Assembly: GCA_900315495.1 (NCBI GenBank)
Contig: OMZJ01000046.1
Span: 1-64,000 of the forward strand
Origin: an uncultured Lachnospiraceae bacterium
Lineage (GTDB): Bacteria; Bacillota; Clostridia; Lachnospirales; Lachnospiraceae
DNA: 64,000 nt
Direction of reading: 5' to 3'
This document shows, one piece after another, positions 10,941 through 28,777 of this stretch (position 1 is the stretch's first letter; the number at the start of each line of letters is the position of its first letter). The notes beneath the pieces are model-generated. The model worked only from the letters and a program-made list of their open reading frames with translations, was not told where the DNA came from and did not search any database. Made by a program: the position numbers and the translations under genes.

Positions 10941-10956
10941 TTCCGGACTTCCGGAA
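10941..10956 (+). promoter_or_regulatory. Hairpin between Shine-Dalgarno and start of the polymerase gene
   Basis: AAAGGAG at 10927-10933 is 22 nt from ATG 10956, too far for normal initiation. Between them TTCCGG (10941-10946) and CCGGAA (10951-10956) can pair around a 4-nt loop, which would bring the ribosome site close to ATG 10956 or ATG 10962. No other in-frame start codon lies in the spacer. Confidence 0.4.
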
Positions 10957-12332
10957 TGAATATGAAAAACAGACTGTTCAAAGAATTTCTGATTCCGTCA
11001 CTTCTCTGGTCGGCGGCCACCTGTGCGGGCGGCCTGACCGATCGCAGTTTTCCTGTGCTCTCCGGTGTGATTCTGATCCTCACGGCGCTCGTCTGTGCCG
11101 GATGGTTTCTCGCCCTGGACCGAAGCCTGGTCTCTTTCCGCTTCCTTCTCTCGTTTTCGTGGGGCGTCGGAGAGGGGATGGCGGCGATGCGGCTCAGTCG
11201 GCTCATGGGATACTGGACCTGGATGTCATGGGCTTCTTTCCTTCTGTTTTACGTGTGCTTCCTCGGAGGTTTCCTGATCCTGCAGGAGGCGGAAGCGCAG
11301 AAAGACCGGAGAAACCTGGAACACCCGAAAGCGCTGGAAGGCCTGAAAGACGTGGAAAACCCGGTTTCCCGCAGCCGCCTCCTGACAGCGGTCATTGTTC
11401 TGACCATTGTTTCCACGGCCTGCTTTTTCCTGGAGGCACATCTTTTAGGCTTCATCCCCGCGTTTTCCAAGGAGACGCATGCCTACAATACGTTTCATAT
11501 CACAGGGATTCATTATCTGACCGTGAGCGGGTGTCTGGTCCCGGGGCTGGAAACAGTCTGGTTTCTGTCCGGGAAGAGGACCGGGCGGCAGATGGCCGTT
11601 CTTCTTTTATGCTGTCTGGCCGCGTTCGCCGTTCCGGTGCTGTCCCTGTCCAAGTTTGACCTGGTGGTCTGCCTGGTCCTTCCGATCGGCGTATGGTTTC
11701 TGATGCGGCCGGCACTTTCGCCCAAACAAATGGCCCTGGTGGTCGGCGGCGTCATCCTTCTGATCGCGGCGGCAACGGTGTACACGACGCTCAGCCGGCA
11801 CTATAAGCCCGGCTATATCGGTTCGATCTTTCAGATGCGCGATGAAGACATGCCGGTTGCCCTGCAGTATGTCTACATGTATGTGTCCAACAATTTCGCC
11901 AACTTCAATGTGCTGACCGAGAGACTGCGGGGCGGGACCATTCCCTATCTGTACGGCATCAAGCAGCTGTTCCCGCTGTTTGCGCTCACAGGGCTCAAAT
12001 TTCTGAAGCCGTCGCTGGTCAGCTACCCGCTCCCGATCACAAAGACGGAGCTCAATACGCTGACGATCATCTATGACGCCTATTATGACTTCGGGCTGGC
12101 AGGCGTCATCGGCTTCGGCCTGATCTTCGGTGCGGTGTGCGCGCTTCTCCGGCAAGCGGTGAACCGGTCGGAAAATCCGATTTTCTGCTTCCTGTATGCG
12201 GAAACGGCGCTGTATGCGGCTCTGTCTTTCTTTTCGGCGTGGTTTTCCGTCCCGACGACCTGGTTCTGGTATGCGGTGACGCTTATGATCTGGCTGTTTG
12301 TGCAGGGCAGTTCCCGGAAGAGGCAGGCATAG
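10956..12332 (+). CDS. Wzy-like oligosaccharide repeat-unit polymerase
   Basis: A 458-residue protein with about 12 hydrophobic segments. It matches the oligosaccharide repeat-unit polymerase pattern: a long extracytoplasmic loop containing NNFANFNVLTERL and NTLTIIYDAYYDFGLAG (about residues 308-390), followed by the last helices and a basic C-terminus. Such enzymes join lipid-linked repeat units on the outer face of the membrane. A short charged loop rich in Glu, Lys and Arg lies near residues 108-135. Sequence divergence in this family is high, so ligase or unrelated polytopic functions are not excluded. It opens the exopolysaccharide locus, but a separate promoter lies after it at 12475, and an ABC exporter follows. 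The start is uncertain by two codons (10956 or 10962). Confidence 0.72.
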   Translation: MNMKNRLFKEFLIPSLLWSAATCAGGLTDRSFPVLSGVILILTALVCAGWFLALDRSLVSFRFLLSFSWGVGEGMAAMRLSRLMGYWTWMSWASFLLFYVCFLGGFLILQEAEAQKDRRNLEHPKALEGLKDVENPVSRSRLLTAVIVLTIVSTACFFLEAHLLGFIPAFSKETHAYNTFHITGIHYLTVSGCLVPGLETVWFLSGKRTGRQMAVLLLCCLAAFAVPVLSLSKFDLVVCLVLPIGVWFLMRPALSPKQMALVVGGVILLIAAATVYTTLSRHYKPGYIGSIFQMRDEDMPVALQYVYMYVSNNFANFNVLTERLRGGTIPYLYGIKQLFPLFALTGLKFLKPSLVSYPLPITKTELNTLTIIYDAYYDFGLAGVIGFGLIFGAVCALLRQAVNRSENPIFCFLYAETALYAALSFFSAWFSVPTTWFWYAVTLMIWLFVQGSSRKRQA

Positions 12333-13499: not shown

Positions 13500-14528
13500 A
13501 TGAATGTAAAAAAGTACAATTTGCGCAAGGTTGCGGGCATTCTCCTTCTGGTGCTGGCCGTGACCTTTGCATTGATTGATGTCATCGGATGGAACCGCCT
13601 GGAAGGATCGCAGGTCGGCCCGGCGGGCGTGATCGCGGTGGAAGCGGTCCTGTACGCCGTCGCCGCGTTTTTCTGCATCCGGATGGTAATAAAGGACCGG
13701 AAGGGTGAGAGTACTGCGCTGGGAAACTTCTTTCAGACAATCGCCCGGTATGAATTCCTGATCCAGCAGCTGGTGGAGCGGGATTTCAAGATCAAGTACA
13801 AAAGGTCCGTGCTCGGCGTCTTCTGGAGCTTCCTGAACCCTCTCCTGATGATGATCGTTCAGTATGTGGTGTTCTCCAACCTGCTCAATGTGCGGGACGG
13901 ATCCATCCAGCATTACGCGATCTACCTGCTCTGCGGTATTGTCATATTCAACGGGTTCAATGACTGCTGCAACCAGAGCATGCGCGCGATCATCGGAAAT
14001 GCCAGCCTGATCACGAAGGTCTATGTGCCGAAGGTGATCTATCCGGTCACAAAGGTGCTCTCCGCGTCGATCAATATCGTCTTGTCGATGGTTCCGCTGC
14101 TTCTGGTCACGGTGATCTACGGGTTGTTCAACGGGCTGTACCTGCACTGGTCCGTGCTGCTGATCCCGATCGCGCTGATTTTCCTGATTGTGTTCTGCAT
14201 CGGGATGGGAATGCTGCTTTCCTGCCTGATGGTATTTTTCCGGGACACCGAATTCCTCTGGAGCGTCTTTTCCACCCTCTGGATGTATGCAACCCCGATT
14301 ATCTACAGCACCGATCTTCTGGAGCGCGGCGGTGCGCACTGGCTGGTCCGCCTGGAGCAGTACAACGCGCTGTATCACTATGTCGATTTCATGCGCAAAA
14401 TCATCATCGACGGGACCTGCCCCGCACTGCGGGAATTTGTGATCTGTCTTGCGTTCAGCCTGGGCATGCTCGCATTCGGCTGGCTGGTATTCCACAAAAA
14501 CGAAGACAAGTTTGTTCTGTATATCTGA
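13500..14528 (+). CDS. ABC-2 type polysaccharide export permease (Wzm/TagG-like)
   Basis: A 342-residue membrane subunit of a glycan exporter that moves undecaprenyl-linked polysaccharide across the membrane. Residues ~75-342 carry the ABC-2 core: LVERDFKIKYKRSVLGVFWSFLNPLLMM is the typical amphipathic N-terminal motif, followed by six helices. The first ~65 residues add two extra transmembrane helices not present in most Wzm/TagG proteins, whose usual length is about 260-270. AGAGGAAAG lies upstream of the ATG. It pairs with the ATPase gene 16 nt downstream. Confidence 0.88.
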   Translation: MNVKKYNLRKVAGILLLVLAVTFALIDVIGWNRLEGSQVGPAGVIAVEAVLYAVAAFFCIRMVIKDRKGESTALGNFFQTIARYEFLIQQLVERDFKIKYKRSVLGVFWSFLNPLLMMIVQYVVFSNLLNVRDGSIQHYAIYLLCGIVIFNGFNDCCNQSMRAIIGNASLITKVYVPKVIYPVTKVLSASINIVLSMVPLLLVTVIYGLFNGLYLHWSVLLIPIALIFLIVFCIGMGMLLSCLMVFFRDTEFLWSVFSTLWMYATPIIYSTDLLERGGAHWLVRLEQYNALYHYVDFMRKIIIDGTCPALREFVICLAFSLGMLAFGWLVFHKNEDKFVLYI

Positions 14529-14543: not shown

Positions 14544-15323
14544 ATGGATCATCGGGATAAGGGTATGGCAGAGAATCAGAAAGCAGAAAATCAGAAAGAC
14601 GACACCATTCTGCGCGTGGACCATGTATCCATGTGTTTTCGAATGGCAAACGACCGGGTGTCCAGTCTCAAGGAGATGGTAACCCTGATGCTTCGCCGGA
14701 AAGTCCAGTTCAATGAGTTCTGGGCGCTGAAGGATATCAGCTTCGACGTGAAGCGCGGGGAGGTGCTCGGTCTCATCGGCCGCAACGGCGCCGGAAAGAG
14801 CACGACCCTGAAGATTATTTCGGGAATCCTGAAGCCCACCGAGGGTAGTGTGTACCGCGGCGGCAACATCGTGCCGATGCTGGAACTGGGATCCGGTTTC
14901 GACTACGACCTGACCGGTCATGAGAATATCTACCTGAACGGCGCCATCCTCGGCTATTCCAGGGAATATCTGGAGGAAAAGTATGACGATATCGTCGCTT
15001 TTTCCGAGCTGGGAGATTTCATCAACGTGCCCATCCGGAATTATTCCTCCGGCATGCTGATGCGGCTGGCCTTCTCCATCGCCACGGTGGTGGATCCGGA
15101 GATCCTGATTGTCGACGAGATCCTTTCGGTCGGCGATGAAAATTTCCAGAAGAAGAGCCGGGCGCGCATGATGGAACTGATGCACGGCGGGACGACAGTC
15201 CTGTTTGTGTCGCACGACCTCAAGCAGATCCGGGAGATGTGCAACCGGGTGGTCTGGCTGGAGGATCACCGCGTGAAGATGTTCGGCGATACCAGGGAAG
15301 TCTGCGACGCCTACCGCCTGTAA
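14544..15323 (+). CDS. ABC polysaccharide export ATPase (Wzt/TagH-like, short form)
   Basis: 259 residues with Walker A GRNGAGKST near residue 78, signature NYSSGMLMRLAFS near 166, Walker B ILIVDEILSVGDE near 190 and a switch histidine in LFVSHDL. The HVSMCFRMAN opening and the inserted LKEMVTLMLRRKVQFNEFWAL segment are typical of polysaccharide exporters. There is no C-terminal carbohydrate-binding domain, so export is unlikely to depend on a terminal cap as in Wzt of the E. coli O8/O9a type. ATG 14544 has no clear ribosome site. ATG 14565 (MAENQK) is preceded by GGGATAAGGG and may be the true start. Confidence 0.9.
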   Translation: MDHRDKGMAENQKAENQKDDTILRVDHVSMCFRMANDRVSSLKEMVTLMLRRKVQFNEFWALKDISFDVKRGEVLGLIGRNGAGKSTTLKIISGILKPTEGSVYRGGNIVPMLELGSGFDYDLTGHENIYLNGAILGYSREYLEEKYDDIVAFSELGDFINVPIRNYSSGMLMRLAFSIATVVDPEILIVDEILSVGDENFQKKSRARMMELMHGGTTVLFVSHDLKQIREMCNRVVWLEDHRVKMFGDTREVCDAYRL

Positions 15324-15442: not shown

Positions 15443-17545
15443 ATGAAATATTGTTTTGACACCTGTGTCTATGCCGGGCACCAGATTGTGATTGCGGGAT
15501 GGGCCGCACCGGATCAGCCGGGAAGTACGCCGGCAATTTCGGTCCTGTCTGCGGACGGGCAGAAACTGCCGGGGGTCCACATGGAGAGATCCCGGCGGGA
15601 AGACGCCGGGGAAGCCGTGTACGGTCAGAAAACGGATGCGGATCTCGGCTTTCGGCTTCAGATTCCCTATCGCGGGGAAAAGAGAATTGCAGTATGTTTA
15701 TCCGGCGGCGGAGACGGCGGGGATCATCTTGAGATCCCCGTGTCCCCGTCTGTTCTGTATCAGCAGTTTGCCGCGCCGCACCATGGCCTGAAACTTCTCT
15801 GGCGCTGGCTGAAGGCGGAGGACAAGGATCGCTTCCTGCAGGCGGAGAAATTTGCCGATCTGCTGCCGGAGGACCGGGAGTATGCTCTTTGGAAACTGGG
15901 AACCGAGCCCACGTCCCGGCAGGCAGAGGAGCAGAGGGAGGCGGAGTTCTCCGAAAACATCGTGATAAGCATCGCGGTGCCGGTGTACCGGCCCGATCCG
16001 GCGCAGTTTGCGGCGTTCCTCCGTTCCGTGCAGGAGCAGACGTATCCGCACTGGGAGCTGTGCCTTGCCGCGTCGCAGGAGGAAACGCCGGAGATCCTGG
16101 ACCTTCTGCGGAAGCTTTCCGCCGAGAACCGGAAGATCAAGGTAACCTTCCTGGAGCGCAATGAGGGAATTTCCGGCAATACGAACCGTGCGGTCAGCAT
16201 GGCCTCCGGAAACTTCATCGCCTTTGCGGATCAGGACGACCTGATCCGGCGGGACGCGCTGTACGAATTTGCGCGTGCCGCGCACCTGTTCGGGGGGGAT
16301 GTCTTCTACTCGGATGAGGACAAGCTGGACGACGAGACCGGCGTCTTCTACGAACCCCATTTCAAGCCGGATTTTAACCCGGATCTGCTCTGCTGCAACA
16401 ACTATATCGGGCATATGGTGATGGTGCGGGCATCGGTGCTGCAGGAGACCGGGCCGCTCAGCCCGGCGCTGGACGGGGCACAGGATCATGACCTGCTGCT
16501 GCGCCTGTCCGAGCGCACGAACCGGTTTGTCCATATCAGCAAGGTCCTGTACAGCTGGCGGAGCCACCGGGGTTCAACGGCACAGCGCCCGGAGAGCAAG
16601 GCCTACGCGTACACTGCGGGGGTGAAGGCGATCAACAGCCACTATGAGAGGACGGGAATCCCCGCGGTGGCGTCCGCCATGGATCTGCCAGGGTGGTACC
16701 GCACGGATTTTGCACTGCGGGAGAAACCGCGGATCTCGATCATCATCCCGAACCGGGACCATGCCGACAGCCTGCGGCGGTGCATCACCTCTATCACGGA
16801 AAAATCAGCCTGGAAGGAGCTGGAATTCCTGATCGTCGAGAACGGGAGCACCGAGCCGGAGACCGAGGCGTATTACAGAGAGCTGGAAGCGGGGGAGGTA
16901 AACTGCCGGATCCTTCGCTGGGAGCAGCCCTTCAACTATTCCGCGGTCAACAATTTTGCCGCGGCGCAGGCATCCGGTCCGCTTCTTCTATTCCTGAACA
17001 ACGATACCGAGATGATTTCGCCGGATGCGCTGGAGAGCATGGCAGGATACCTCCTCCGGAAGGAAGTCGGCGCAGTCGGCGCGAAACTGTACTATCCGGA
17101 CGATACCATCCAGCATGCGGGGGTCCTGGTCGGCGTCAGCGACGGCGCGGACCATGTCTTCCTGCACGCAAAGAAGAGCGACCCAGGCTACATGGGGAGG
17201 GCGATTGTCTCCCAGGAGGTCTCGGCGGTTACGGGTGCCTGCATGATGGTGCGAAAGGACGTCTTTGACGAGGCGGGGGGCTTCGACCCGGCATTTACCA
17301 TTGCCTATAACGACGTCGATTTCTGCCTGAAGGTGAGATCCCGCGGATATTACGTCGTGTTTGACGCCTTCTCGGAATGGTACCATTACGAATCGCTGTC
17401 GCGGGGATACGAGACAACGAAGGAAAAGAGCGACCGCTTCGAGACGGAGAAGAAGCTTCTTCGCAGCCGCTGGCCGGAGGCAATGACCGGGGATCCCTAT
17501 TACAACAGAAACCTGAGCCTGAAGCACGGATACTATAAGAGGTAA
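15443..17545 (+). CDS. Double GT2 glycosyltransferase with novel N-terminal domain (paralogue 1)
   Basis: 700 residues from ATG 15443 (AAAGAGGATACG upstream). Residues 1-100 form a beta-rich domain opening MKYCFDTCVYAGHQIVIAGW. A helical linker follows, then GT2 domain A (about 173-400: VISIAVPVYRP, DQDD, metal site YSDEDKLD near 289, FKPDFNPDLL). GT2 domain B spans about 429-680 (RISIIIPNRDH, LNNDTEM near 519, NDVDFCLKVRSRGY near 622). Bifunctional enzymes of this type add two sugars, or alternate linkages, on a lipid-linked chain at the cytoplasmic face. The next gene, 2 nt away, is a paralogue with the same three-part layout. Donor specificity is unknown. Confidence 0.87.
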   Translation: MKYCFDTCVYAGHQIVIAGWAAPDQPGSTPAISVLSADGQKLPGVHMERSRREDAGEAVYGQKTDADLGFRLQIPYRGEKRIAVCLSGGGDGGDHLEIPVSPSVLYQQFAAPHHGLKLLWRWLKAEDKDRFLQAEKFADLLPEDREYALWKLGTEPTSRQAEEQREAEFSENIVISIAVPVYRPDPAQFAAFLRSVQEQTYPHWELCLAASQEETPEILDLLRKLSAENRKIKVTFLERNEGISGNTNRAVSMASGNFIAFADQDDLIRRDALYEFARAAHLFGGDVFYSDEDKLDDETGVFYEPHFKPDFNPDLLCCNNYIGHMVMVRASVLQETGPLSPALDGAQDHDLLLRLSERTNRFVHISKVLYSWRSHRGSTAQRPESKAYAYTAGVKAINSHYERTGIPAVASAMDLPGWYRTDFALREKPRISIIIPNRDHADSLRRCITSITEKSAWKELEFLIVENGSTEPETEAYYRELEAGEVNCRILRWEQPFNYSAVNNFAAAQASGPLLLFLNNDTEMISPDALESMAGYLLRKEVGAVGAKLYYPDDTIQHAGVLVGVSDGADHVFLHAKKSDPGYMGRAIVSQEVSAVTGACMMVRKDVFDEAGGFDPAFTIAYNDVDFCLKVRSRGYYVVFDAFSEWYHYESLSRGYETTKEKSDRFETEKKLLRSRWPEAMTGDPYYNRNLSLKHGYYKR

Positions 17546-17547
17546 CG

Positions 17548-19818
17548 ATGGATTACTGTTTTGATTCAGTTTCGATCAAGGACGGCATCTGCCAGATCGT
17601 CGGATGGGTGACGGCCGGAGACCGGGCGGACCGCATCCGCATCCACGCGGTGGATGAAAAGGGGCAGGAGATTCCCGTGGAAGTGACGAGAGCCGCCCGC
17701 CCGGATGTCGGCCTGGCAAAGTACGGCGATCCGAAGGCGTCCGATGTGGGAATCTTTCTGCGGATCCGGATGAATTCGTCCGGGGAAGTCCGGGTGGTCC
17801 TGGAAGAGATTGACCCTTCCGGAAACCTGGTGGACCGCTTTGCGGAGCCGGTGAACGGCATACTGATTCCGCTCCGGGGCGCGTACCGGGAGCTCAAGAA
17901 GACCGCCATTGACACGCGCATGGCGGTGAGAGACCTGCGGCTTCGCGCCGAGGGCCGGCAGGACGCGCAGTACAATGACTGGTTCAACTGCATGAAGGTG
18001 ACCAACTGGGAGTGGGAGAAGCAGCGGGGAACGGAATTTCCTGTGATGCCGCTGTTTTCCATCGTGGTGCCCCTATATCACACGCCCTCCCGGTATTTCC
18101 GGATGATGGTCCGCTCTGTGATCCGGCAGTCGTATCCAAACTGGGAGCTGATTCTGGTGAATGCGACGCCGCGGGATGCGGTGCTGAGCCGGTCCGTGCA
18201 GGAATACTGCGAATATGACGACCGGATCCGCGAGGTGCGCCTCAAGAAGAATCTGGGGATCGCCCGGAATACCAACCACGGAATCCGCCAGGCGTCGGGC
18301 GATTTCATCTGCTTCCTGGACCATGACGATCTGATCGAACCGGACGCGCTCTATGATTATACGGAATACATCAACGGCCACCCCACAGCGGAGCTTCTCT
18401 ACTCGGATGAGGACAAGGTCGGGGAAAATGACAACTGGTACCGGTATCCGAATTTCAAGCCGGATTTCAACCCGGATTTCCTTCTGTCCAACAACTATAT
18501 CTGCCATTTCCTCTGCATCCGGAAAGCCATGCTGGACCGCACAGGCCTGATGCGGCCGGAGATGGAGGGTGCGCAGGATTATGACCTGATTCTCCGCGTC
18601 ATGCAGGAAGCGGATGCCCTGCATCATCCGGAGACCTTCGGCCATGTGCCGCGCATCCTCTACCACTGGCGCAGTCATGCGGGCTCCACTTCAGCGTCGC
18701 AGTCCAACAAATTTTATGCGATCCACGCCGGGGAACGGGCGCTAAACGATTTTTATGCGGCGTCGGGACTGAGCTGGACCGCACAGATCGGCGCGGTGGA
18801 CGGATGGTATACCACGAACCGCCCGCTGACGCGGCATCCGCTGGTGTCGGTGCTGATTCCCTCCAAGGACCATATCGATGACCTGGATGTCTGTCTGCGG
18901 TCCCTGGAGGAGCGGTGCACCTACGACCGGTTCGAGGTCATCGTCATCGAGAACAACAGCACCGATCCCGAGACGTTTGCCTACTACAAGGGACTGCCGG
19001 CGCGCTTCCCCAATGTGCGCGTGGTGCGGTGGGATCCGGAAGGCCGCGGATTCAACTATTCGGCGATCAACAACTACGGCAGAAAGTACGCGCAGGGAGA
19101 ATACCTGCTGCTTTTGAACAATGACGTCGAGGTGATCACACCGGATCTGTTTGAAAACATGCTCGGCCTGGCCATGCGGGAGGACGTGGGAATCGTCGGG
19201 GCAAAGCTTCTCTATGACGACCATACGGTTCAGCACGCAGGGGTTCTGGTCGGCGCGGGAGGGCTGGCGGATCACGTCTTCAAGGGGATTCACGAGGATG
19301 ATCCGGGATACATGGGCCGCGCATCCTGCGTGCAGGATCTGTCGGCGGTGACAGCCGCGTGCCTGATGGTCCGCACTTCGGTGTATGACGAGGTGGACGG
19401 CCTGAACGAGGATTTCGCGGTGGCGTTCAACGACGTGGATTTCTGCCTGAAGGTCGGCGCAAAGGGATACCGGATTGTGTACGACGCGGATGTAAAGCTC
19501 TATCATTATGAATCCAAATCCCGTGGGAGCGAGGATACCCCGGAACGGTTCGTGCGCTTCGGACGTGAGATGACGATGCTCAACGAGCGGTGGGATATCC
19601 TGCGCAGCTACCGGGACGCTTCCTACAACCCCAACCTTTCCTATGTGAAATATTATTCCCTGAACATGGAAATGATGCGGCAGCGGGAAGACGCGCTCGA
19701 GAAATATCAGAAGGAGCACTATGGCAGAGAATATTGTTACGGTAGTCATCCCCAATTACAATGGAAAAAGGTTCTTAAAAAGGTGCCTCGACTCCTTAAG
19801 AAGACAGTCTTTTCGTGA
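17548..19818 (+). CDS. Double GT2 glycosyltransferase with novel N-terminal domain (paralogue 2)
   Basis: 756 residues. It has the same order as its upstream paralogue: an N-terminal domain opening MDYCFDSVSIKDGICQIVGW (about 1-100), GT2 domain A (about 168-400; YSDEDKVG near 285), and GT2 domain B (about 431-690; LLNNDVEV near 522, NDVDFCLKVGAKGY near 628). The C-terminus is longer than in paralogue 1 and ends in a basic amphipathic segment (KKVLKKVPRLLKKTVFS) suited to membrane contact. The last 98 nt overlap the next gene in another frame. AAGAGGTAACG precedes the ATG, so translation is close-coupled to paralogue 1. The two probably build a common backbone. Confidence 0.87.
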   Translation: MDYCFDSVSIKDGICQIVGWVTAGDRADRIRIHAVDEKGQEIPVEVTRAARPDVGLAKYGDPKASDVGIFLRIRMNSSGEVRVVLEEIDPSGNLVDRFAEPVNGILIPLRGAYRELKKTAIDTRMAVRDLRLRAEGRQDAQYNDWFNCMKVTNWEWEKQRGTEFPVMPLFSIVVPLYHTPSRYFRMMVRSVIRQSYPNWELILVNATPRDAVLSRSVQEYCEYDDRIREVRLKKNLGIARNTNHGIRQASGDFICFLDHDDLIEPDALYDYTEYINGHPTAELLYSDEDKVGENDNWYRYPNFKPDFNPDFLLSNNYICHFLCIRKAMLDRTGLMRPEMEGAQDYDLILRVMQEADALHHPETFGHVPRILYHWRSHAGSTSASQSNKFYAIHAGERALNDFYAASGLSWTAQIGAVDGWYTTNRPLTRHPLVSVLIPSKDHIDDLDVCLRSLEERCTYDRFEVIVIENNSTDPETFAYYKGLPARFPNVRVVRWDPEGRGFNYSAINNYGRKYAQGEYLLLLNNDVEVITPDLFENMLGLAMREDVGIVGAKLLYDDHTVQHAGVLVGAGGLADHVFKGIHEDDPGYMGRASCVQDLSAVTAACLMVRTSVYDEVDGLNEDFAVAFNDVDFCLKVGAKGYRIVYDADVKLYHYESKSRGSEDTPERFVRFGREMTMLNERWDILRSYRDASYNPNLSYVKYYSLNMEMMRQREDALEKYQKEHYGREYCYGSHPQLQWKKVLKKVPRLLKKTVFS

Positions 19819-20713
19819 ATTTGACACGCTTGTGATTGACAATGCCTCCACCGACGGGAGCGTGCCCTGGCTGCAGGAGAACTATCCCTGGGTGAAGGTT
19901 GCGGTGATGAAGCGAAACCTGGGATTTGCCGGCGGGGTCAACGAGGGCATCCGCATGTCCCACACGCCGTTTGTGCTTCTTCTGAACAATGATACGGAGT
20001 CCCATCCGGATATGATCCGCGAGATGGTGCGCTGCATGAAGAGCTCCGACCGCATCTTTTCCGTCCAGGCAAAGATGGTTCAGTTTCACCACCGTGAGCT
20101 TCTGGATGACGCGGGGGATCTGTACACGCTGATGGGCTGGCAGATCCAGCGCGGCGTGGGTCAGAAGGTGAGCATTGCCTGCCGCAGTCAGGAGGATGTT
20201 TTCTCCTGCTGTGCGGGCTGCGCAATGTACCGGAAGTACATCCTGGACCGTATCGGCTATTTTGATGAGATGCATTTTGCCTATCTGGAGGACATTGACC
20301 TGGGGTGGCGCGCGCGGATCAACGGGTTCCGCAATGTGTACTGCCCGAAAGCCGTGTGCTTTCACGTCGGAAGCGGAACCTCCGGTTCCAAGTACAACAG
20401 CTTCAAGGTCCGGCTCTCGGCCAGAAACAGCGTATATATCAATGTGAAGAACATGCCGGCGCCGCAGCTTCTGTTCAACGCGCCCGCCCTTCTGGCCGGG
20501 TATGCGGTGAAATACCTTTTCTTTGCCCGGATCGGTTTTGGGAAAGACTACGCGGACGGGCTCCGGGAGGGAATCCGAAACTGCCGGAAGTGCAAGAAGG
20601 TGTTCTTCCGCGGATCGCAGCTGAAAAACTACTTTGCCATCGAGATGGAACTGATCATCAATACCTTTATTTACCTGTCCGACTTCTTCAAGCGGCATCT
20701 GGAAGTCTTCTGA
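19721..20713 (+). CDS. GT2 family glycosyltransferase
   Basis: A 330-residue single GT2 enzyme. VTVVIPNYNGKRFLKRCLDS opens the fold, LLLNNDTES near residue 89 is the metal site, and YLEDIDLGWRARINGF near 188 is the acceptor/catalytic ED motif; a hydrophobic and basic C-terminal part follows. This pattern is common in rhamnosyl- and other dTDP-sugar transferases. GAAGGAG lies 6 nt before the ATG, and the N-terminal motif begins at residue 6, so the start is secure even though it lies inside the 3' end of the preceding gene. It ends 85 nt before the phosphotransferase gene, which has its own promoter. Confidence 0.87.
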   Translation: MAENIVTVVIPNYNGKRFLKRCLDSLRRQSFREFDTLVIDNASTDGSVPWLQENYPWVKVAVMKRNLGFAGGVNEGIRMSHTPFVLLLNNDTESHPDMIREMVRCMKSSDRIFSVQAKMVQFHHRELLDDAGDLYTLMGWQIQRGVGQKVSIACRSQEDVFSCCAGCAMYRKYILDRIGYFDEMHFAYLEDIDLGWRARINGFRNVYCPKAVCFHVGSGTSGSKYNSFKVRLSARNSVYINVKNMPAPQLLFNAPALLAGYAVKYLFFARIGFGKDYADGLREGIRNCRKCKKVFFRGSQLKNYFAIEMELIINTFIYLSDFFKRHLEVF

Positions 20714-22380: not shown

Positions 22381-23712
22381 ATGGCAGGCAGACAGAATCC
22401 GAGAAAGAAAGCTCCGGCAAAGGTCCGGCATGTTTCCCGTACAAGACGGGGAAGCCGGGCGGGCCGGATTGCGCTGATTCTGATGGAAGTAGTCATGATC
22501 ATGGTGCTGACCGTCGGCGTGTACGGGGTGAATCTCCTGGGCACGCTGGAGCGGACGGACATCGATGAGAATCAGATCTACGTCTACAACGGGAACAATT
22601 CCAACAACGGCAACACGGTGGTTGCCGCCGTGAACGGTGCCGAACAGGCGACGAAAGTGCCGGAATCCGCAGCGGAGGATGCGACGCTGGAGGACGCGAC
22701 GCTGGATGATGTGATCCATGCGGTGAATGTCTCGGATTCGACGGAGGACTGGGAAATTCAGACGGAAGAGATCAATTCCGCGGACGATTTTCTCGCCGAG
22801 CGGGAGACTACCGAGGGCTTCTGGAATATCCTGATCCTGGGCGTGGATGCCCGCATGAATCAGTCGCTGGCCGACGGAGACTACCGCGCGGATGTCATTA
22901 TCATCTGCAGCATCAACGTGGATACCAAGCAGGTGAAACTAGCCTCCGTCTACCGCGATACCGTGATGAAGATGTACGACCAGGACAATTACATCAAGAT
23001 CAATGACGGCGTCTTCACCGCCCTCGGCGGCAGCCCGATGGAAATGATCTCCATGATCAATCTGAATCTGGACTTGAACATCAAGGATATCCTGATCGTC
23101 AACTGGGCTTCCGCGGCCCTGGCGGTCAATGCGCTGGGCGGGCTTGACCTGGAGATCACGCAGGAAGAGATCGACAAAGGTATCATCACCGGCTATCTGA
23201 CGGAAGTGGTGCAGGAGACCGGAATCGGCACGGACGGGCAGTTCACGCAGGGCGGACTGCAGCACTGCGACGGCCCGAAGGTTGTCGCCTACTGCCGCAA
23301 CCGCTATACCACGGGCTCGGATTTCGGACGCACCAGCAGGCAGCGGGAAGTTATGGAAAAGCTGCTGGAAAAGGCAAAGACCGCGGATATCGGCACCCTG
23401 TTCAACCTGGTGCGGATTATTTTCAGCAATATCTACACGACACTGGATTACGGGGAGCTGTTCTCTCTTGCGGGAGACATCAAGAACTACAGTATTGTCG
23501 ACACGATCGGTTTCCCCGAGGACTACAAGACGCAGTCGACGATGGGGCTTCTGACCAGCGAGTACAACATGAAGGATCCGCTGGTCGCGGATACCCTGGT
23601 GTCCAATGTCATTTCGCTGCACCAGTTCCTGTTCGGTGACGACGGGTATTCCCCGTCGGATAACTTGCAGACAATCAGCAGCAATATCGCCTATCTGTCT
23701 GGCACGGATTGA
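22381..23712 (+). CDS. LytR-CpsA-Psr (LCP) glycopolymer transferase 1
   Basis: Attaches undecaprenyl-linked glycopolymers to the cell wall outside the membrane. 443 residues: a very basic N-terminus (KKAPAKVRHVSRTRRGSRAGR), one helix (about 31-52), then an extracytoplasmic low-complexity region rich in Asn, Ala and Glu (about 62-140). The LCP domain (about 145-400) contains ILGVDAR, the catalytic-type Arg/Asp pair in SVYRDT, and CRNRYTTGSDFGRTSRQREV. Placed directly after the initiating phosphotransferase, it is the likely ligase for the exopolysaccharide made by this locus. GGAGGGATAACGA precedes the ATG. Confidence 0.9.
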   Translation: MAGRQNPRKKAPAKVRHVSRTRRGSRAGRIALILMEVVMIMVLTVGVYGVNLLGTLERTDIDENQIYVYNGNNSNNGNTVVAAVNGAEQATKVPESAAEDATLEDATLDDVIHAVNVSDSTEDWEIQTEEINSADDFLAERETTEGFWNILILGVDARMNQSLADGDYRADVIIICSINVDTKQVKLASVYRDTVMKMYDQDNYIKINDGVFTALGGSPMEMISMINLNLDLNIKDILIVNWASAALAVNALGGLDLEITQEEIDKGIITGYLTEVVQETGIGTDGQFTQGGLQHCDGPKVVAYCRNRYTTGSDFGRTSRQREVMEKLLEKAKTADIGTLFNLVRIIFSNIYTTLDYGELFSLAGDIKNYSIVDTIGFPEDYKTQSTMGLLTSEYNMKDPLVADTLVSNVISLHQFLFGDDGYSPSDNLQTISSNIAYLSGTD

Positions 23713-25845: not shown

Positions 25846-27270
25846 ATGGTTTTTTCCAGCCTGTTTTTCATCTTTGTATTCCTGTGCCTGAACCTGATCA
25901 TCTATTTCCGCGTGCAGGACATTCAGAAAAAGAACATTGTTCTCCTCGTCTTTTCCCTGATTTTCTATTCCTGGGGTGGTGTCCGCTACGTGTTTCTGCT
26001 CCTGGGCATGGCCCTTGCCAGCTGGTATGCGGCGGTCCGGATTGACCGGGCCGGCGAAGACGGCACGGAGAAGAAGAAGTGGATGATCGCTGGATGCGTC
26101 ATCCTGCTGGGCCTTCTGGCCGTATTCAAGTATACCGGATTCTTCTTCCGGACCTTTGACGCGGTGACGGGCCTGTCGGACTTTGTCCCGGACATCGCGC
26201 TGCCGATCGGCATTTCGTTCTATACGTTCCAGCTGCTCTCCTATGTCGCGGATGTATACCGCGGGGAGGTGAAGGCGCAGCCGAAGTACTGGAAGATCCT
26301 CCTGTACTGCAGCCTGTTTCACCAGTGCATTGCCGGACCGATCGTGCGCTATCAGACGGTGGCGGAGGAAATTGACAGCCGCAGAGTCACCATCGGCGAC
26401 CTGACGGTCGGCATCCGCCGTTTTTCCGTCGGACTTGCCAAGAAAGCCATCCTGGCCAATGCCTGCGCGTCTGTGGCAGACAAGTTCCTGCAGGATCCGG
26501 CCTCAGCACCGACGGCCGGCCTGTGGCTCGGCATGCTGTTCTACATGTTACAGATCTATCTCGATTTTTCGGCGTACTCGGACATGGCCATCGGGATGGG
26601 CCGGATGGTGGGATTCCATTACTTGGAAAACTTCAATTATCCCTACATCGCCACATCCGTGCAGGAGTTCTGGCGCAGGTGGCATATCTCCCTGTCCACC
26701 TTTTTCCGCGATTATGTGTATATTCCGCTGGGCGGAAGCCGGAAGGGAAACGCGATGACGGTCCGGAATCTGTTCATCGTCTGGTTCCTGACGGGCATGT
26801 GGCACGGCGCCAGCTGGAATTATATCCTGTGGGGACTGTATTTCTTTGTCTTCCTGGTGCTGGAGCGGTTCGTGCTCCGGAAATATCTGGACCGGCTTCC
26901 CGCGGCGGTGGGCTGGATCTATGCGATGTTTGTCGTCCTGATCGGCTGGGTTCTGTTCCGCTTTGAGAGCCTGCCGCAGCTGGGACAGGTCCTGTCCGGC
27001 ATGTTCGGCGCCGGCGGACGTTCCTTCACCAGCATGTCGGTGCACTATTCCTTCCTCAACAACCTGTTCCTTCTGATTTTCTGTGCCATCGCCTGCACAC
27101 CGCTCGGTTCCATGCTTCGTCGGGCCGCCTATGTGGAGGCGGACAAGAGGCAGACACCGGCGGTGGTCTGCTACTGGGCAGACGCCGTGACGCCGGCGGT
27201 TCTCACGATTCTATCCTTCATTGCGCTGGTGGGGAACAGCTACAATCCGTTCCTCTATTTCCAGTTCTGA
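25846..27270 (+). CDS. MBOAT family O-acyltransferase (AlgI/DltB-like)
   Basis: Moves an acyl group, usually acetyl, across the membrane for O-acylation of an extracellular glycan. The 474-residue protein has about ten hydrophobic segments. Family landmarks are PIGISFYTFQLLSYVADVYRG, FWRRWHISLSTFFRDYVYIPLGG, and the catalytic His in MWHGASWNYILWG (near residue 322). AAAGGAGTTTTTTAAGGG lies before the ATG. The DHHW partner follows 22 nt downstream, the same pairing seen between AlgI and AlgJ/AlgX. The most likely target is the polysaccharide encoded just upstream, although cell-wall glycan is possible. Confidence 0.92.
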   Translation: MVFSSLFFIFVFLCLNLIIYFRVQDIQKKNIVLLVFSLIFYSWGGVRYVFLLLGMALASWYAAVRIDRAGEDGTEKKKWMIAGCVILLGLLAVFKYTGFFFRTFDAVTGLSDFVPDIALPIGISFYTFQLLSYVADVYRGEVKAQPKYWKILLYCSLFHQCIAGPIVRYQTVAEEIDSRRVTIGDLTVGIRRFSVGLAKKAILANACASVADKFLQDPASAPTAGLWLGMLFYMLQIYLDFSAYSDMAIGMGRMVGFHYLENFNYPYIATSVQEFWRRWHISLSTFFRDYVYIPLGGSRKGNAMTVRNLFIVWFLTGMWHGASWNYILWGLYFFVFLVLERFVLRKYLDRLPAAVGWIYAMFVVLIGWVLFRFESLPQLGQVLSGMFGAGGRSFTSMSVHYSFLNNLFLLIFCAIACTPLGSMLRRAAYVEADKRQTPAVVCYWADAVTPAVLTILSFIALVGNSYNPFLYFQF

Positions 27271-27292
27271 CGGCGGAGGTGTGACAGAAAAA

Positions 27293-28777
27293 ATGGATTA
27301 CAAGCAGAAAAAGAAAAAAGTTCGCCGGAAGGCGCATACGGTCGGGATACTCCTCTTTGCCGCGGTGATTCTGTTCTTCGCGGTGCTGGGATGGATCCTG
27401 CCGTTACGTCCGTCCGTATCCCAGCGGGAGAAGCGGGAGCTGACGAAATTCCCAAAATTTTCCATATCGGCGCTGATGGACGGCTCCTATTTTTCACAGA
27501 TTTCTACCTGGTACTCCGATACCTTCCCGTTCCGGGATGCCTGGGTTCTGGCGGATTCCGGTCTGGAATCCCTGCGGGGCATCCGCACGGTACAGATCAT
27601 CCAGGGAGATACCGCGAAGGACGAGATCCCGGATGCGCCAATGAGCGGGAACAGCGGCGGCGCACAGACAGAGACGGCACCTGCGGAGGAAGAATCCGCG
27701 GAACCGGTGTCTCTGGAGGCAGAGACAGAAAATTCCGGAGAAGTCACGGAGGTAAGCCGGACGACAGCGGCAGCAGCAGACAGCGGCAGCAGCACGGCTG
27801 TCACGACCTCGGCATCCGTTTCTCCGGCCGAACCCGGTACCACGGCTGCATCTTCGGATGCCTCCTCGGATCTTCCGATGGTGCAGGGACAGGTGCAGAA
27901 CAACCTGATCATCAGCGGCGATACCGCCTATGGCATCTATTATTTCAATCTCAATGCCGCGAATACCTATATTGAGACGGTCAACCGGATGGCAGAAGAG
28001 CTGAAGGGACAGACGAATGTCTACTGCATGCTGGTTCCGATCAGTTCCACACTGTATGTCAGCCGGGACACGCTGGACGCAGCCGAGAGCAGCGATGAAG
28101 CCAAGGCTATGAGCTATTACTATGACTCCATGAACACGGATGTGAAGAAGGTGCCGATTCTGGATACCCTCATGGATCACCGCGACGAGTACATCTATTT
28201 CCGCACGGACCATCACTGGAACGGACGGGGCGCCTACTACGCGGCCTGTGAGCTGCTGAAGGCGATGGGGCAGACACCGCATGATCTCTCCGAGTATCAG
28301 GAGATGGATTTCGGCGGTTTCCTCGGATCCTACTACCAGAGCAGCCTGAATGTGGGACTGCGGGCGAATCCGGATGTGATCAACGCATTTGTGCCGATCA
28401 CCTGCAACACCATGACGTTCACCGAGACGGACGGAACGACGCTGGACTGGCCCATCATCAACGATGTGTCCGGATATTCGGAGGGACAGAAATATTCCAC
28501 CTTCGCGGCGGGGGACAATCCGTACAGCGTGATTCACAACCCCAATGTCACCAACGGGCGGAGTGCCGTCGTCATCAAGGAATCCTACGGCAATGCGGTA
28601 ATTCCGTTCCTGACAGATTATTATCAGGATCTGTACTGGTTTGATTATCGCTATTATAATGGGAGCATCACCCAGTTTATCGAGGAGAACGGCATCGATG
28701 ACCTGATTTTCATCAACGCCACGGAGCCGATTTCGTCGATCGAGCAGGTACAGCGCATGAGCGGACTGCTGCCCTGA
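27293..28777 (+). CDS. DHHW family protein (AlgJ/AlgX-like acetyltransferase partner)
   Basis: 494 residues from ATG 27293; GGAGG lies 13 nt upstream, while a GTG at 27281 is too close to it. A basic N-terminus (KKKKVRRK) and one helix (about 17-38) export the rest. Residues ~45-105 resemble the conserved start of the family (FPKFSISALMDGSYFSQIS). A Ser/Thr/Ala/Glu-rich linker of about 80 residues follows (about 115-200). The SGNH-like catalytic part has the family motif TDHHWNGRGAYYA near residue 305 and KESYGNAVIPFL near 430. It probably receives acetyl groups through the MBOAT protein and places them on exported polysaccharide. Confidence 0.9.
   Translation: MDYKQKKKKVRRKAHTVGILLFAAVILFFAVLGWILPLRPSVSQREKRELTKFPKFSISALMDGSYFSQISTWYSDTFPFRDAWVLADSGLESLRGIRTVQIIQGDTAKDEIPDAPMSGNSGGAQTETAPAEEESAEPVSLEAETENSGEVTEVSRTTAAAADSGSSTAVTTSASVSPAEPGTTAASSDASSDLPMVQGQVQNNLIISGDTAYGIYYFNLNAANTYIETVNRMAEELKGQTNVYCMLVPISSTLYVSRDTLDAAESSDEAKAMSYYYDSMNTDVKKVPILDTLMDHRDEYIYFRTDHHWNGRGAYYAACELLKAMGQTPHDLSEYQEMDFGGFLGSYYQSSLNVGLRANPDVINAFVPITCNTMTFTETDGTTLDWPIINDVSGYSEGQKYSTFAAGDNPYSVIHNPNVTNGRSAVVIKESYGNAVIPFLTDYYQDLYWFDYRYYNGSITQFIEENGIDDLIFINATEPISSIEQVQRMSGLLP

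Follow-up and report, generated by a model that had tools for sequence, protein, structure and literature searches.

Tandem Double Glycosyltransferases of a Lachnospiraceae Bacterium Carry a Putative Sugar-Holding Module That Resembles a Domain of Enterococcal Lysins

Two adjacent genes, P0001 and P0002, were analyzed in a stretch of 64,000 nucleotides (the window) from an uncultured Lachnospiraceae bacterium. The account that we consider the likelier one is that they encode tandem-duplicated bifunctional GT2 polymerizing enzymes, whose N-terminal domain (N-domain) is a mobile CBM-like module with an Ig fold that holds the glycan near the catalytic pair. Double GT2s form an ordinary family that spans the bacteria, to which the finding on the N-domain is a modest, testable addition.

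The Gene Pair and Its Catalytic Modules

The initial annotation had described two adjacent double-GT2 genes of 700 and 756 aa, with the same order of modules and a 2-nt spacing, and the open reading frames and Pfam matches confirm this. Both genes are complete and adjacent, with a gap of 2 nt (TAA-cg-ATG). PF00535 is matched twice in P0001 and twice in P0002, and the AlphaFold model of P0002 shows both GT-A modules. The mechanical list of open reading frames starts P0001 at GTG 15239, but the homologous N-domains begin at ATG 15443. The features of the pair are as follows:

15443..17545, + strand: P0001, N-domain and two GT2 modules, 700 aa (Pfam and motif alignment)
15443..15742, + strand: N-terminal Ig-like "GW" domain of P0001, residues 1 to ~100 (profile match and alignment)
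15953..16678, + strand: GT2 module A of P0001, ~residues 171-412, DxDD at 263-266 (Pfam and motifs)
16724..17518, + strand: GT2 module B of P0001, ~residues 428-692, NND at 519-521 (Pfam and motifs)
17548..19818, + strand: P0002, N-domain and two GT2 modules, 756 aa (Pfam, motif alignment and AlphaFold full-length model)
17548..17856, + strand: N-terminal Ig-like "GW" domain of P0002, residues 1-103, seven strands (full-length model)
17857..18042, + strand: helical linker of P0002 from the N-domain to module A, residues 104-165 (model, lower confidence)
18043..18783, + strand: GT2 module A of P0002, residues 166-412, DxDD at 258-261 (Pfam, model and motifs)
18835..19647, + strand: GT2 module B of P0002, residues 430-700, NND at 524-526 (Pfam, model and motifs)

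The two proteins are 40% identical over their full length; identity rises from 32% in the N-domain through 39% in module A to 50% in module B. That the N-domain is the least conserved region would fit a change of specificity and also relaxed constraint. The motifs DxDD (DQDD/DHDD), SDEDK, FKPDFNPD, GAQDxD, NND, QHAG, NDVDF, and HYES are intact in both proteins. Helical stretches resembling the P0002 linker are present in relatives without the N-domain.

A Surface Polysaccharide Locus

The pair lies in a surface polysaccharide locus of the Wzm/Wzt type, whose product is probably wall-linked. The locus contains genes for YbbR, CdaA, an O-antigen-polymerase-like protein, a GT2, Wzm, Wzt, P0001, P0002, another GT2, a WcaJ-type transferase, and an LCP ligase, and L079, a further genome of the genus, shows synteny with it all the way from YbbR to LCP. 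The neighbors of the pair include:

10956..12332, + strand: O-antigen-polymerase-like protein (TIGR04370; profile match)
13500..14528, + strand: ABC-2 permease, Wzm-like (profile match; syntenic in L079)
14544..15323, + strand: ABC exporter ATPase, Wzt/TagH-like, 259 aa, without the C-terminal carbohydrate-binding domain (profile match)
19721..20713, + strand: single GT2 enzyme, with a 98-nt overlap between its start and the end of P0002
20799..22214, + strand: WcaJ-type undecaprenyl-phosphate sugar-phosphate transferase, for initiation (above the TIGR03023 curated cut-off)
22381..23712, + strand: LCP (LytR-CpsA-Psr) glycopolymer ligase (profile match)

The overlap of P0002 with the next GT2 gene recurs in L050 and L079 and suggests translational coupling. 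Since rmlA and rmlD are found elsewhere in the genome, both above curated cut-offs, a supply of dTDP-rhamnose is probable, which concerns donor availability only. Downstream of the glycan locus, at 25846-28777, an MBOAT acyltransferase adjoins a DHHW/AlgX-like protein, a typical pair for the O-acetylation of surface glycans.

An Old Local Duplication

A local duplication had been proposed from the resemblance of the two genes, and the phylogeny upholds it. In a maximum-likelihood tree of 50 sequences, restricted to the GT part, the P0001 clade and the P0002 clade are sisters (UFBoot 100), each with orthologues within the genus, and the next relative outside them is L031. Because the clades are sisters and each holds orthologues from the genus, the duplication was local and took place before the sampled genomes of the genus diverged. 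It is thus old, the tandem pair being shared by two further genomes of the genus. Separate tandem pairs exist in other genera, for example in L081, where the copies are sisters, and in L080, where they are not. An apparently closer relationship of P0002 to proteins of other genera than to P0001, which would speak against a local duplication, was overturned by the tree, where the P0001 branch is long. "Family" and "genus" are used here as the ranks assigned by the search tool. A scan of contigs with the full P0001/P0002 pair was insensitive, finding two loci.

Sequence and Predicted Fold of the N-Domain

The N-domains of P0001 and P0002 are homologous, with a Smith-Waterman score of 100, where shuffled sequences average 26.2 (SD 4.6, z ~16). 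A phmmer search of the whole genome with the P0001 N-domain found only the P0002 copy (E = 4e-6). For the opening motifs of the initial annotation, "M-[KD]-Y-C-F-D" is exact in both proteins, whereas "G-x2-I-x-G-W" is loose; "I-x-G-W" is shared and the spacing of the preceding G differs. The conserved positions of the domain are G-W, R-x-D-V, and G-F. Its richness in beta strands, noted earlier, was rightly seen according to the AlphaFold models: the AlphaFold2 model from 43 copies is an Ig-like beta sandwich (mean pLDDT 96.4, pTM 0.83), to which the full-length model of P0002 adds a seventh strand at residues 94-103 and the lower-confidence helical linker.

No usable match to the N-domain was found among the Pfam, NCBIfam, and PHROG profiles, and Foldseek searches of the PDB and of viral models returned generic Ig-like folds only, with no match at E ≤ 1e-3 and a TM score of ~0.5. 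The N-domain is a module separate from the GT2s, not their linker, and it has no name in Pfam, NCBIfam, or PHROG. To this extent the earlier description as "uncharacterised" stands, but homologues are in print, namely the C-terminal domain of EfAmi1 (PMC10167349) and UCWB1 (PMC10630273).

Distribution and Modularity

The N-domain is not special to P0001 and P0002. With the 43-sequence profile it was found in 67 of the 150 sampled genera of the host family. The family-derived profile also detected it in at least 11 of 146 genomes sampled across the order and at least 5 of 398 sampled across the phylum, both of these counts being lower bounds because the samples are sparse and the profile comes from the family.

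The placement of the domain varies widely. At the N terminus of double-GT2 relatives it is absent, present once, or present twice, or is replaced by a coiled coil. Moreover, the domain is C-terminal on a GT4 (L106) and on a GT2 (L109), and it lies between a GT2 and a GT4 in L093. A 1243-aa protein of L047 (3988-7701) consists of a methyltransferase, a kinase-like part, a GW domain, and a double GT2. In the Wzt of L089, a GW-like C-terminal stretch is found at the place where the Wzt of L081 has Wzt_C. This tail scores 36 bits in an iterated profile possibly trained on it and 13.6 bits in the strict profile, making it a suggestive candidate for a relative of the N-domain. The double GT2s of Azospirillum (L110, L113) have two N-terminal "GWA" repeats that may be distant proteobacterial relatives, with only 6.8 bits against the N-domain profile. 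Overall, the N-domain is probably a reusable, putatively sugar-holding module.

Two further arrangements were observed. A short protein of L107 (4553-5825), split over two open frames, has a hydrophobic N-terminal stretch and three consecutive GW-domain repeats. In L033 (319-7192), two of four consecutive glycosyltransferase genes carry the N-domain, one of them seemingly without a normal second GT2 module.

Relationship to Lysins and Wall Hydrolases

Among PDB sequences, the N-domain profile matched residues 218-306 of EfAmi1, an E. faecium prophage amidase (E = 1.9e-5). The C-terminal domain of this enzyme is missing from the crystal, and a new carbohydrate-binding module was proposed by its authors from a predicted model (PMC10167349). 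A tblastn search with this domain gave 57 phage records, mostly of enterococcal endolysins. Phages 9181, 9184, Aramis, Zip, and IME199 are among the matches, and their lysins have in common UCWB1, the unknown cell-wall-binding domain of enterococcal endolysins, for which glycan binding has been proposed (PMC10630273).

The likeness of the EfAmi1/UCWB1 domains to the N-domain is a significant sequence-profile match. A non-circular profile, made from 34 N-terminal GT copies only and thus without lysins, gave 36.8, 29.9, 26.6, 24.4, and 17.5 bits with five enterococcal lysins (E down to 8.5e-10), against a best score of 4.3 bits among 1,089 shuffled sequences; a sixth lysin (L121) was not a significant match. 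The two groups differ in their partners, since the EfAmi1/UCWB1 domain is fused to amidase_2 in the lysins and the N-domain of the window to glycosyltransferases. As for predicted folds, the EfAmi1 domain has been described from an AlphaFold model as an eight-stranded barrel with helices, and our model of the window domain is a seven-stranded Ig-like sandwich.

Weaker matches of 15-22 bits, with a profile not trained on these proteins, place the domain directly after Peptidase_M23 (L134), Phage_lysozyme2 (L137), and CHAP (L132). All three are large secreted bacterial proteins, which also have other binding repeats, lectins, and Ig repeats. A further large secreted protein (L133), with no assignment for its catalytic part, has a weak GW-domain match. 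We tentatively propose that the domain could represent a new carbohydrate-binding family common to the builders of surface polysaccharides and to bacterial and phage wall-cutters. The glycans recognized by the lysin and GT domains would then belong to a single class, perhaps rich in rhamnose, and one of the two domains may have arisen from the other.

Proposed Function of the N-Domain

In the mechanism that we propose, the N-domain, tethered by the helical linker, would bind the growing or acceptor glycan, which would stay close to both catalytic modules. This tethering would raise efficiency or processivity and would discriminate between acceptors. Modules A (DxDD) and B (NND) would add successive sugars, plausibly from dTDP-L-rhamnose, and probably in different linkages by analogy with a characterized polymerase (see below). 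We infer the glycan binding of the N-domain, its ligand, and the rhamnose donor. Domain architecture indirectly supports the glycan-acceptor role, and a glycan-binding module is the simplest account because polysaccharide synthases and wall hydrolases share the domain by shuffling, and because it is repeated in tandem and has no catalytic motifs.

The Ig-like matches returned by Foldseek for the predicted model are equally typical of protein-protein domains. The main rival explanation is one in which the N-domain would dock to a protein, binding Wzm/Wzt, the other paralogue, or the adjacent GT2, or would orient the enzyme at the membrane. Ig-like folds are frequent interaction modules, and the best Foldseek matches are Ig domains; the tandem paralogues and the strict synteny with Wzm/Wzt suggest a complex, and protein-protein complexes have been described in such assembly systems (PMC11231755). 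However, no common intracellular partner is possible for a domain that has further copies in phage endolysins and, by weaker matches, in secreted wall hydrolases, and its C-terminal or internal position in unrelated enzymes likewise argues against this role, which we regard as unlikely.

More doubtful still is a purely structural part for the N-domain, as a spacer or an aid to folding that has no ligand of its own. Such a part would fit the low conservation of the region between P0001 and P0002, as well as the existence of intact-looking double-GT2 relatives that lack it, but the GW, RxDV, and GF motifs are kept across highly divergent copies, and the domain forms tandem repeats and has moved between classes of enzymes. 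Finally, the domains are short, their identity is low, and Foldseek against viral models gave no lysin, as would be the case if small Ig-like sandwiches had converged, but the same ordered motifs recur (for example, "KYNIDLVNINSKAFQIKGW" in L119 and "MKYKIDIVRIRENSITLNGW" in L041) and the E-value of the lysin-free profile, with the scores of shuffled controls far below those of the lysins, makes convergence in place of homology very improbable.

If the N-domain binds glycan, as we favor, it would be a recognizable carbohydrate-binding marker in many unannotated glycosyltransferases of gut bacteria, and a family would be found for the wall-binding domain that is labeled "unknown" in many Enterococcus faecium lysins. 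It could then be asked whether polymerases grip the growing chain with the type of module that wall-cutters use to find the finished chain.

Comparison with Known Systems

ORF6-C of Klebsiella pneumoniae O7 is a tandem GT2 TDP-rhamnose polymerase, whose DxDD module transfers two Rha residues in alpha-1,2 linkage and whose NxD module transfers a single one in alpha-1,3 linkage (PMC11231755). P0001 and P0002 share with it the tandem GT2, the order of a DxDD first and an NxD second module, and the setting in an ABC-transporter-linked glycan locus. A P. asturiensis protein (L123) with the same tandem-GT2 architecture is ~40% identical to the GT part of P0001/P0002. In contrast to ORF6, P0001 and P0002 have neither the methyltransferase-kinase terminator nor the coiled coil, as judged by Pfam/NCBIfam profiles.

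The ORF6 polymerase-terminator also has a predicted CBM of unknown role (PMC11231755). Identity of the N-domain with this CBM was considered and is unsupported, as L123, a Pseudomonas proxy for the Klebsiella sequence, was not matched; the CBM is therefore an analogous module at the same position and not a demonstrated relative. The L047 protein described above is laid out like the Klebsiella O7 polymerase-terminator, except that its GW domain stands where ORF6 has the different predicted CBM. Wzt_C (PF14524) of ABC O-antigen exporters is likewise an accessory beta-sandwich module for glycan recognition in these pathways, and the Pfam model PF14524 gave no match to the N-domain.

For the two-GT architecture, the best PDB matches are the chondroitin polymerase K4CP and heparosan synthase 2. 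Their sequence matches leave the N-domain of the window uncovered, and identity in the fold alignment is 13-16%. A double GT2 is also found in the ABC-type polysaccharide locus of the E. coli IncY plasmid pEC81-2 (L112, 9668-11560), where weak GW-like matches fall at the end of one GT2 and within a hypothetical protein of 211 aa.
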